Assembly: GCF_003003235.1 (NCBI RefSeq)
Contig: NZ_PVUE01000001.1
Span: 434,001 to 498,000 of the forward strand
From: Antricoccus suffuscus
GTDB lineage: Bacteria; Actinomycetota; Actinomycetes; Mycobacteriales; Antricoccaceae
DNA: 64,000 nt
Reading direction: 5' to 3'
The notes under the pieces are model-generated. The model was not told where the DNA came from. It ran no database searches and saw only the letters and a program-made list of their open reading frames with translations. Position numbers and translations under genes: made by a program. Of this stretch, positions 8,326-59,551 are shown piece after piece. Position 1 is the first letter of the stretch. Each line of letters starts with the position of its first letter.

Positions 8326-9092
8326 TGAGTGACCTGGTTACCGTCTCGTACGACGGGCCCGTGACGATCATCAGCATCAATAGGCCGGAGGTACGTAACG
8401 CGGTCAGCCGGCCGACCGCCGAGGCTCTTGCCGACGCGTTCCGCGCGTTCGATGCCGATGAGGACGCCGCCGTCGCGATCCTGACCGGCGTTGGCGACAC
8501 GTTTTGCGCCGGAGCCGACCTTAAGGCCTTCAGCGAAGGCAATCCCAACCGTGTCGAACCAGACGGCGACGGCCCGATGGGAATTTCCCGCCTTCGGCTC
8601 TCGAAGCCAGTAATAGCGGCGATCCGCGGTCATGCGGTCGCCGGCGGACTGGAGCTCGCGGTCTGGGCAGATCTGCGCGTGGTCGACGAAACGGCCGTGT
8701 TCGGCGTTTTCTGCCGGCGCTGGGGGGTCCCCCTGATCGACGGTGGCACTATTCGGCTACCGCGGTTGATAGGTCAGAGCCGCGCGATGGATTTGATCCT
8801 GACTGGCCGCCCGGTCGACGCGGACGAGGCGCTCGCGATCGGCCTGGCCAACCGCAAGGTGCCGGGCGGCGAGGCGCTCACCGCGGCGGTGACGTTGGCA
8901 AAGCAGTTGGCTGCCTTTCCTCAGGTATGCATGCGCAACGACCGGCTCTCGTCGCTGGAGCAGTGGGGGATGAGCGAGGAGGACGCGATCTCCGTCGAGT
9001 ACGGGTACGGCGTGGGCTCGCGCAACGCCGGCTCTCAGGACGGCGCCAAGCGCTTCGCCGACGGCGAGGGGCGACACGGCACCTTCGCCTAA
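8325..9092 (+). CDS. Enoyl-CoA hydratase/isomerase (crotonase family)
   Basis: 255 residues. The oxyanion-hole segments are GDTFCAGADLKAF (about 57-69) and AIRGHAVAGGLELA (about 100-113). The catalytic-glutamate region reads FCRRWGVPLIDGGTIRLPRLIG, in which the hydratase glutamates are not obvious, so the reaction may not be simple hydration. The start ATG shares its A with the stop of the ligase gene. A 22-bp tandem repeat follows four bases after the stop. Confidence 0.9.
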   Translation: MSDLVTVSYDGPVTIISINRPEVRNAVSRPTAEALADAFRAFDADEDAAVAILTGVGDTFCAGADLKAFSEGNPNRVEPDGDGPMGISRLRLSKPVIAAIRGHAVAGGLELAVWADLRVVDETAVFGVFCRRWGVPLIDGGTIRLPRLIGQSRAMDLILTGRPVDADEALAIGLANRKVPGGEALTAAVTLAKQLAAFPQVCMRNDRLSSLEQWGMSEEDAISVEYGYGVGSRNAGSQDGAKRFADGEGRHGTFA

Positions 9093-9096
9093 CCCG

Positions 9097-9160
9097 CGAT
9101 CCGTCACAAAATACCCGACGATCCGTCACAAAATACCCCGCGATCCGTCACAATGTCTCC
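9097..9160. repeat. Three tandem 22-bp units between the hydratase and aminotransferase genes
   Basis: Units begin at 9097, 9119 and 9141. The first two read CGATCCGTCACAAAATACCC plus two variable bases; the third diverges after CGATCCGTCACAA. On the other strand the unit reads GGGGTATTTTGTGACGGA. The third copy runs up to the GTG start of the next gene. A related array with the same 22-bp period lies at 21216-21281. Confidence 0.75.
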
Positions 9161-9901
9161 GTGCATCCGCCACCGAGTCCCCGCCCATCCGTCCCACTCG
9201 AGATTCGCGTGCACGAGGGGATTTTCGAGACCGTGCTCATCGTGGACGGCGTCGTACGCGAGTTGCCGCCGCACATGGCAAGACTCCGGCGTTCGTTCTG
9301 GGAATGCTATCGAGTCCCGCTCGACCTCGACGCGGATGCCGAGGTACGCCGGACCGCCGCGCCGTACGCCGGATACCACCGCGCCCGCATCGTGGCCACG
9401 CCCGAGGACCCGACCCGGCTGCGCGTCGAGGTGCAGCCGTGCGATCCGCCCGTGCCGCTTGAGCAGCAGCCCGGTCTGATGCTCCAGGTACGCCGCGCGC
9501 ACGCGCTCGCGCCGCATAAATTCGTCGATCGCGATGCGCTCAACCACGCCGAAATCGGACTCGGCTCAGACGAGGCGGTCGTGTTCGCCGACTACGACGG
9601 GCTCGTGCTCGAGGGCAGCCGCAGCAACATCTTCGTCGTACGCGATGGCCAGATCTGCACGCCACCGCTCGACGGGCGGATCCTGCCTGGCGTCAGCAGG
9701 CAGCTGATCCTCAACTATGCCGACGATATCGGCGTACCGGTGGCGATCGCGCCCATCTCCCTTGACGAACTAGCCGCCTCGGAGGGTGCGTTTCTGACCA
9801 ACTCAATCCGCGGGGTGCAGTGGGTACGCCGCACCAGCGGGGCGGAATGGGTCGAGCCGCACCCGCTCACTCGGCTAATCGCGAGTCACGATGCCGGGTG
9901 A
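9161..9901 (+). CDS. Class IV aminotransferase (aminodeoxychorismate lyase / branched-chain aminotransferase-like)
   Basis: 246 residues of the PLP fold-type IV family. HKFVDRDALNHAE near residue 123 holds the expected PLP lysine region, EGSRSNIFVV near 151 and LDGRILPGVSRQLIL near 170 are family signatures. The frame is open far upstream, but GTG at 9161 is the first sensible start just after the tandem repeat; the family length (about 250-290) allows it. It is probably a PabC-like lyase or D-amino acid type enzyme, and the sequence does not separate these. The next gene overlaps its stop codon (GTGA). Confidence 0.8.
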   Translation: MHPPPSPRPSVPLEIRVHEGIFETVLIVDGVVRELPPHMARLRRSFWECYRVPLDLDADAEVRRTAAPYAGYHRARIVATPEDPTRLRVEVQPCDPPVPLEQQPGLMLQVRRAHALAPHKFVDRDALNHAEIGLGSDEAVVFADYDGLVLEGSRSNIFVVRDGQICTPPLDGRILPGVSRQLILNYADDIGVPVAIAPISLDELAASEGAFLTNSIRGVQWVRRTSGAEWVEPHPLTRLIASHDAG

Positions 9902-32853: not shown

Positions 32854-32871
32854 CTCCTCTTTCTTCATAAG

Positions 32872-32912
32872 GTCATACGCCCTGGTCGCTACTAGCGACC
32901 GGGGCGTATGAC
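32872..32912 (+). terminator. Strong hairpin terminator of serA
   Basis: The arms are 32872-32891 and 32893-32912, 20 bp with a single G-T wobble, around a centre of TACTAG. GTTATTCG follows, with only a short T-rich tail. It sits 19 bp after the serA stop and before the pirin promoter. Confidence 0.8.
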
Positions 32913-32940
32913 GTTATTCGTGTGTGCCGTCTTGCGAGGG

Positions 32941-38385: not shown

Positions 38386-38437
38386 CTAACGTCCGGCAAA
38401 GTGGTCGCCAGGGCGACCAGTTTGCCGGACGCAACGG
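38386..38437. repeat. 52-bp palindromic repeat, copy 1
   Basis: Starts CTAACGTCCGGCAAAGTGG and ends TTTGCCGGACGCAACGG. The 19-bp arms (38391-38409, 38412-38430) differ at one position and would form a long hairpin. It lies 14 bp past the stop of the minus-strand gene at 38452. Copies 2 and 3 are at 42987 and 44059. Confidence 0.85.
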
Positions 38438-42986: not shown

Positions 42987-43038
42987 CTAACGTCCGGCAA
43001 AGTGGTCGCCCCGACGACCACTTTGCCGGACGCAACGG
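42987..43038. repeat. 52-bp palindromic repeat, copy 2
   Basis: Same sequence and length as copy 1 apart from the loop and one arm base. It ends four bases before the stop codon of the DUF559 gene (43043), on its 3' side. With copy 3 it flanks that gene in the same orientation. Confidence 0.85.
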
Positions 43039-43042
43039 TGTT

Positions 43043-43984
43043 CTAGGGTGCGCGAGAGTGTAAACCTTCCCAGCCGCCACGCCGCAAGAGGCGTCCGGCC
43101 TGCGCCATAAATGGATCCGGCCCGATGCGAAACGCGATTACCGGTACCCGCAACACGCGTGAATCTCCCAGAGTCACCTCGTTTTGACGAAACAGGTCGG
43201 CGTACGCCGCATCTGGCCCGAAGTGCTGCGCGCCGTCAATCTCAACGACGGCGTCGTACTCGTCCCATTCGGCGTCGAGGTAGGCGCGTCCATTGGGCAT
43301 CACCCGTACTGTCTGGCGGTCGGGCGGTGGGTAGCCCCACTTGCGACACATCGCGGCGAAGTCGAGTTCCCCGAGGGACTGTGCACCGTCCGCGAGATCG
43401 CCGATTGTGCGACGGATCAGCGAACGCCGCACATGTCGCTTAACGGTGTGGGCAGCGAGCCACAGGTCCTCGGCTGTCACGATTCGTTGCTGCACGACCA
43501 TCGCGAGAATCGTCACCGCCTGGCGATCCGACCGCGCCCAGAGTGCGGCCCGAATTGCGGCGATATGCGGCAGGACCCTCGGCAGGCCGACCGCGGCGAG
43601 GTCATTCGGCTGGCGCCGCCGAGTCTCATGGATCCGCACTCCCTTAGTGCGGCGATATCTTGCCGATTTTGGCACGCTGACGTGGACGACGTCCTCGCTG
43701 AAGCCGCTGAGACCAACTGCGATCAGCGCGCTAACGCCATCCACGGCGGCGGCGGTCCCTACCTCAAACACCGCTTGCCACAGTTTCGAGTGAGTGCCCG
43801 CCGGACCGACTTGGATGGACTGCTGACCGAGCCGGACCCAGCGCCCAGCGGCGAGTTCGGCGCGCACTTCGCTCCGTGTAAGTCCGGCTTGGTAGAGCTG
43901 ACGGCGGTGCGCGACTCCCTCTTGCGGTGCGGCGAGGGATAGCACCCGCGACCGCCGGAGTGTCCGTGCGCGTGGAGTCGTCAT
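43043..43984 (-). CDS. DUF559-type endonuclease-like protein with AbiEi-like N-terminus
   Basis: 313 residues. The N-terminal 60 residues (GVAHRRQLYQAGLTRSEVRAEL...GRWVRLG) form a helix-turn-helix resembling the AbiEi_4 domain. The C-terminal third holds LDAEWDEYDAVVEIDGAQH near 236-254, the D-x(n)-E-x-D/Q core of the Vsr/PD-(D/E)xK-like DUF559 fold. This pairing is common in actinobacteria, but the function is not established. The gene is flanked by two direct copies of the 52-bp palindromic repeat. Confidence 0.82.
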   Translation of the reverse strand: MTTPRARTLRRSRVLSLAAPQEGVAHRRQLYQAGLTRSEVRAELAAGRWVRLGQQSIQVGPAGTHSKLWQAVFEVGTAAAVDGVSALIAVGLSGFSEDVVHVSVPKSARYRRTKGVRIHETRRRQPNDLAAVGLPRVLPHIAAIRAALWARSDRQAVTILAMVVQQRIVTAEDLWLAAHTVKRHVRRSLIRRTIGDLADGAQSLGELDFAAMCRKWGYPPPDRQTVRVMPNGRAYLDAEWDEYDAVVEIDGAQHFGPDAAYADLFRQNEVTLGDSRVLRVPVIAFRIGPDPFMAQAGRLLRRGGWEGLHSRAP

Positions 43985-44058
43985 GCCACGAGCGTCCCGC
44001 AGATTCGCGCGATTCGATCATCCCGCCGGGCTAGCTGTGGATAACGCCCGTCGTACCT

Positions 44059-44110
44059 CTAACGTCCGGCAAAGTGGTCGTCCCGACGACCACTTTGCCG
44101 GACGCAACGG
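44059..44110. repeat. 52-bp palindromic repeat, copy 3
   Basis: Same 52-bp length and orientation as copies 1 and 2, arms perfect. It lies 30 bp past the stop of the GH4 gene (44141, minus) and 75 bp upstream of the DUF559 gene. Confidence 0.85.
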
Positions 44111-59447: not shown

Positions 59448-59475
59448 CAGTCTGACCCGACAGCCTGTATCACCG

Positions 59476-59519
59476 ACTGTGCACTTGTGTCACCGACCTC
59501 GGTAACACAAGTGCACAGT
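59476..59519. terminator. Bidirectional hairpin terminator
   Basis: ACTGTGCACTTGTGT (59476-59490) and its exact reverse complement (59505-59519) with a 14-base loop that itself holds ACCGA/TCGGT. It stands between the converging hydroxylase operon and the iron-binding protein gene. No T-run, but a 15-bp perfect stem. Confidence 0.75.
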
Positions 59520-59551
59520 TCACGACACAAGCAACGGCCTCGCGAGTCGCG

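Follow-up and report, generated by a model that had tools for sequence, protein, structure and literature searches.

REPs are common in bacterial genomes, and RAYT is the enzyme family that has until now been linked to them. In REP/REPIN-RAYT (TnpA_REP) systems, or 'REPtrons', dispersed extragenic palindromes lie mostly 3′ of genes and the same palindrome flanks a low-copy enzyme gene on both sides; a single genome can harbour several such enzymes, each specific to its repeat, and a second REP superfamily has been reported without a dedicated transposase (PMC3733652). A DUF559 nuclease domain is found in Caulobacter VsrA, which has a functional link to a cytosine methyltransferase motif and is responsible for an SOS response in vivo; the text of the VsrA paper contains no mention of palindromes (PMC12907096).

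The locus described here has the REPtron layout, but its predicted enzyme combines a DUF559/Vsr fold with an AbiEi-like domain instead of being an HUH/Y1 transposase, its palindromes are longer (about 42-50 bp) and its cassette includes a DnaA box. It shares with EDxHD/Vsr-like homing endonucleases such as I-Bth0305I a catalytic-domain fold (a weak match, quantified below) and occupied and empty alleles, yet it lies between palindromes in an intergenic region, outside any intron, intein or coding gene, and its putative target is dispersed. The DUF559 nuclease domain is common to VsrA, which its functional tie to a methyltransferase motif may set apart from this family. AbiE type IV toxin-antitoxin systems have an AbiEi-like N-terminal domain in common with it; unlike in AbiE, this domain is here fused to a nuclease and no AbiEii toxin gene adjoins. 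A prior report of a DUF559-palindrome association was not found in the literature searched, a scope outside which most subscription papers fell.

Table 1. Features of the cassette and the third palindrome copy in the window (the whole 64,000-nucleotide stretch of Antricoccus suffuscus DNA analysed).
Feature	Positions	Strand	Basis or context
Nuclease gene, 313 aa (AbiEi-like and DUF559/Vsr-fold domains)	43043-43984	minus	ORF, homologues, AF2 model
Putative DNA-recognition domain, AbiEi-like, residues 12-187	43424-43951	minus	PADLOC AbiEi 1e-14; Foldseek 6y8q 6e-5, 1zel 5e-4
Predicted DUF559/Vsr-fold nuclease domain, residues 200-302	43079-43387	minus	invariant residues; 3hrl profile match 8e-7; 3r3p fold match
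Downstream palindrome (REP) copy	42987-43038		4 bp past nuclease-gene stop codon
Upstream palindrome (REP) copy	44059-44110		74 bp ahead of start codon; directly 3′ of the presumed GH4 gene
DnaA-box sequence TTATCCACA, perfect	44036-44044	minus	between upstream palindrome and nuclease gene; kept in homologues
Third palindrome copy, without nuclease gene	38386-38437		a gene 3′ end lies 21 bp away (our gene calls)

The cassette spans about 1.1 kb in the order palindrome, DnaA box, nuclease gene, palindrome (Table 1), which confirms the framing of the gene by two 52-bp repeat copies proposed in the initial annotation; the palindromes, there called identical, are nearly so (98%) but differ by one mismatch. 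Each copy in the window has a perfect stem of 18-20 bp, and the upstream copy has a DNA folding z-score of -9.8, with none of 200 shuffled sequences being equally stable. The nuclease gene is a free-standing intergenic ORF, with no intron, intein or conserved-gene insertion, between what we take from their translations to be acyl-CoA dehydrogenase and GH4 genes. Inspection of the neighbouring ORFs revealed no AbiEii nucleotidyltransferase toxin gene. Synteny with one relative (G003) preserves both flanking blocks in order, 17 kb apart, and gave no precise empty site for this locus. The window also contains further long palindromes of unrelated sequence (32867-32917 and 59463-59532) and a short tandem array with a 22-bp period (9090-9199), the copies of which are increasingly diverged along the array.

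The window protein alone gave no Pfam match to DUF559 up to E=1, while AbiEi profiles matched it (Table 1). Among 28 homologues, Pfam detected DUF559 in 22 and AbiEi_4 in eight, and no HUH/Y1 (IS200-like) transposase family in any. Alignment of the 28 sequences revealed five invariant residues (E206, D237, E248, D250 and G251), the acidic ones being conserved in a PD-(D/E)XK-like manner. An AF2 model (pLDDT 91) resembles AbiEi (6y8q) and Rv2827c (1zel) in Foldseek searches, and its C-terminal half matches the catalytic domain of I-Bth0305I (3r3p) with a TM-score of 0.66 by target length and a weak E of 0.5. The C-terminal part also matches NGO0050 (3hrl) in the structure search, an entry that a sequence profile recovers independently. 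The window protein is thus predicted, from profiles and the model, to consist of an AbiEi-like DNA-binding domain and a DUF559/Vsr-fold nuclease; the earlier designation as a DUF559 endonuclease-like gene stands on the family-wide Pfam matches and the Vsr-like C-terminal half, and is extended by the N-terminal domain. The closest homologue (58% identity) belongs to a different family (G021). Six Micromonospora homologues (G047, G196, G030, G188, G083 and G018) have one internal TGA per match in the search output, and some of these copies may be decaying.

Homologues are numerous within the order, with 80 more named loci from Micromonosporaceae, whereas searches of viral contigs for relatives of the nuclease found none. 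Plain alignment of gene flanks, without a palindrome requirement, was unspecific (107/228 controls at score 16), so a hairpin-pair test was used that, at one fixed setting, requires a similar hairpin on either side of the gene no more than 350 bp away. This test was positive for 53 of 116 homologue loci and for none of 228 control ORFs from the same loci (Fisher 4e-30, a P value that overstates independence, given that loci share ancestry and a few entered the set twice). A bracketed member is present in 12 of 21 clusters defined at 60% protein identity. About half of the homologue loci fail the test, which is strict and misses, for example, the degenerate copy at L118. Most pairs do not allow direct orientation to be told from inverted. 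The same L118 locus (G064, 293-2415) features three successive copies of one palindrome, with a SAM-methyltransferase-like ORF between copies 1 and 2 and the DUF559 gene between copies 2 and 3, and is thus an instance of a palindrome pair around a different gene.

The A. suffuscus genome encodes seven related genes. Six of these are bracketed, each by a different palindrome, and a contig end truncates the seventh; the pairs are in direct orientation wherever loop asymmetry permits a call, and a second palindrome type has about four further copies elsewhere in the genome. DUF559 genes elsewhere do carry repeats, as had been anticipated, but not the same repeats, since each lineage and each paralogue has its own type. 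Protein identity and palindrome similarity are correlated (Mantel r 0.83, n=47, a value inflated by shared ancestry within Micromonospora), also when the comparison is reduced to 20 representatives (r 0.59); no permutation was as high in either case. The cleaner evidence of co-divergence is the window's own clade, in which seven of ten loci, from three taxonomic families, have palindromes ending in CGTCC[GT]G...C[AC]GGACG, sometimes as doublets. The pattern is degenerate, with 192 occurrences in 768 kb of other loci, and the weight of this evidence therefore rests on the bracketing position, not on the bare motif. The closest homologue is accompanied by CGTCCTGCAAAGTGA palindromes, of which its genome has roughly 40 copies, and 32 of 41 Micromonospora genomes contain between 1 and 94 GATCTTGG...CCAAGATC palindromes (reversed control, 0).

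The arm of the window repeat has 53 half-site matches genome-wide with up to two mismatches, compared to three for the reversed pattern, so the repeat is not due to chance. The arms form about 23 palindromes with variable loops and scattered stem mismatches. By our gene calls, 20 of 23 are intergenic and three overlap predicted genes, one of these overlaps probably being due to a wrong start call. Every one of the 20 intergenic copies has a gene 3′ end within 50 bp, and none is located between divergent genes. The window repeat is therefore short, dispersed, extragenic and biased to gene 3′ ends, as a REP is. Sixty relatives, including four genomes of the same family, contain at most isolated half-sites, and neither the genome nor the viral collections yielded a full match; fixation of the repeat throughout the clade is thus contradicted by same-family genomes that lack it. 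Rfam returned only weak microRNA matches, far under the gathering score. Two palindromes of the window type lie inside predicted genes of the same genome (L039, 3662-3701, and L040, 3397-3436), the former about 85 bp from another copy.

Alternative states of a single site are seen in Micromonosporaceae, where 31 loci share one position 3′ of a gene that we take, from its flanks, to be topA. The cassette is in one orientation in 16 of these loci and inverted in 15, and the protein tree requires at least three changes to account for the reversed-orientation group. Only two relocations were seen, both being genes of the topA clade at other sites (L138 and L146). Among 30 Micromonospora genomes examined at topA, six carry the gene between two palindromes, five carry one palindrome at the same position and lack the gene, and the rest have neither, a few of them with a different or degenerate palindrome. 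The search for empty sites that hold a repeat but not the gene, suggested with the initial annotation, was therefore successful in five genomes, and full, single-palindrome and empty topA sites represent occupied and unoccupied alleles of one site, as homing endonucleases also have. A full site (L232) and two single sites (L224 and L226) have common left and right flanks and differ by the gene and one palindrome, a comparison that fits insertion and deletion alike. Because the gene at topA is orthologously placed or absent in most genomes, movement appears to be slow. Free movement, considered in view of the differing Micromonospora contexts, was rejected, as most of these contexts are one site with the cassette inverted. 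Two topA sites without a cassette (L225 and L238) have a different-class or degenerate palindrome in the same place.

Upstream of the gene, 62 of 113 loci have the sequence [CT]T[AG]TCCACA, the actinobacterial form of the DnaA box, in sense orientation and two have it in antisense orientation, compared to 0/112 and 0/108 control stretches. Of 53 paired loci, 29 have the box between the upstream palindrome and the gene, and in 22 of these 29 it is 2-9 bp inward of the palindrome. Among the window-type copies examined, only the copy upstream of the nuclease gene has the box.

A mechanism is proposed in which the cassette is that form of a REP family which carries the gene, the nuclease acts at its own palindrome and repair spreads that palindrome; we consider this reading probable. 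The AbiEi-like domain would most likely recognize the gene's own palindrome, at which the Vsr-fold nuclease would nick or cut. Repair from another copy could then seed the palindrome at intergenic 3′ ends and could also carry the whole cassette into single-palindrome sites, while recombination between the flanking palindromes would delete the gene, leaving one palindrome, or invert it. The change from full to single sites and the inversion can also be explained by plain host recombination between repeats in which the nuclease is uninvolved. Bracketing, dispersal, co-divergence of protein and palindrome, the four site states and the conserved catalytic residues are observed, and from there we infer recognition, cleavage and repair-driven copying. 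Action of the nuclease on DNA is plausible because the DUF559 protein VsrA is responsible for an SOS response in Caulobacter. The likeness to a RAYT/REP pair put forward in the initial annotation is strongly supported by the empty sites and lineage-specific repeats, whereas mobilization of the repeat and hairpin cleavage are suggested steps.

The placement of the intergenic copies near gene 3′ ends and never between divergent genes would also be expected if the palindromes were ordinary host elements, either terminators or REPs moved by other means, and the nuclease resided in REP-rich 3′ ends with a role in mismatch repair or defence. Known REPs have the same 3′ bias (PMC3733652) and mismatch repair is the role assigned to VsrA in Caulobacter (PMC12907096), but the control genes of the same loci are unbracketed (0/228) and the palindrome type tracks the protein even between paralogues in one genome. 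The terminator reading in particular, raised by the 3′-end bias, is weakened by these gene-specific palindromes, by the lack of any T-tract intrinsic terminator called at window-type copies and by stem mismatches without RNA-strand bias (7 G.U vs 11 A.C). A host-element origin is therefore unlikely.

Co-divergence of protein and palindrome, together with the Vsr-like fold and the scattered stem mismatches, could instead reflect a nuclease that polices palindromes by trimming REP-extruded cruciforms or mismatched hairpins, as a host-friendly partner and not as a mobilizer. We regard this as quite unlikely, since policing alone leaves the bracketing of the gene and its relocation and inversion between palindromes unexplained. 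Co-divergence would likewise suit any DNA-binding partner, including an AbiEi-type regulator for which the flanking palindromes are operators and the dispersed copies a regulon, and the AbiEi-like domain is in keeping with this. The dispersed copies are, however, wrongly placed for operators, being 3′ of genes, one copy is also present downstream of the nuclease gene, the nuclease residues are conserved and an adjacent AbiEii partner gene is absent, which makes a regulator quite unlikely too.

By anatomy alone, the system would be a variant of the REPtron idea; what sets it apart is an enzyme of a class without relation to RAYT. If the mechanism is correct, DUF559, a large and mostly unstudied family, would gain a role and a directly assayable substrate in its own palindrome, the loci would provide many natural protein-DNA pairs with which recognition can be studied, and the none, single, full and inverted alleles of a mobile unit could be traced across species.

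Of 22 loci with short DUF559 genes in plasmid-collection records, a small sample drawn mainly from Alphaproteobacteria and Deinococcota, 14 have a pair of similar palindromes no more than 300 bp away, compared to two of 142 control genes from four records only, with gene ends estimated where unannotated. These palindromes are of the CCCTCTCCC...GGGAGAGGG type, and CGTC REPs were not found beside the proteobacterial DUF559 genes. It is possible, at somewhat less than even odds, that DUF559/Vsr-fold endonucleases form another class of REP-mobilizing enzymes, unrelated to RAYT transposases, that in several phyla spread their own palindromes by cut-and-repair, perhaps coupled to replication through the DnaA box, and together account for REP families without a known mobilizer. 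As the palindromes described here are not CGTC REPs, the gap reported by Di Nocera et al. is a parallel that the present work leaves unsolved.

Several of the DUF559 genes in the plasmid set lie inside conserved operons (suf, pnt, hpa and paa). Two palindrome-bracketed DUF559 genes of Sphingomonas parapaucimobilis are located in the gap between sufB and sufC and inside a transhydrogenase cluster (L213 and L214). On plasmids of three Deinococcus species (L219, L261 and L262), a DUF559 gene occupies differing positions in the hpa cluster, which look as if they arose by separate insertions.
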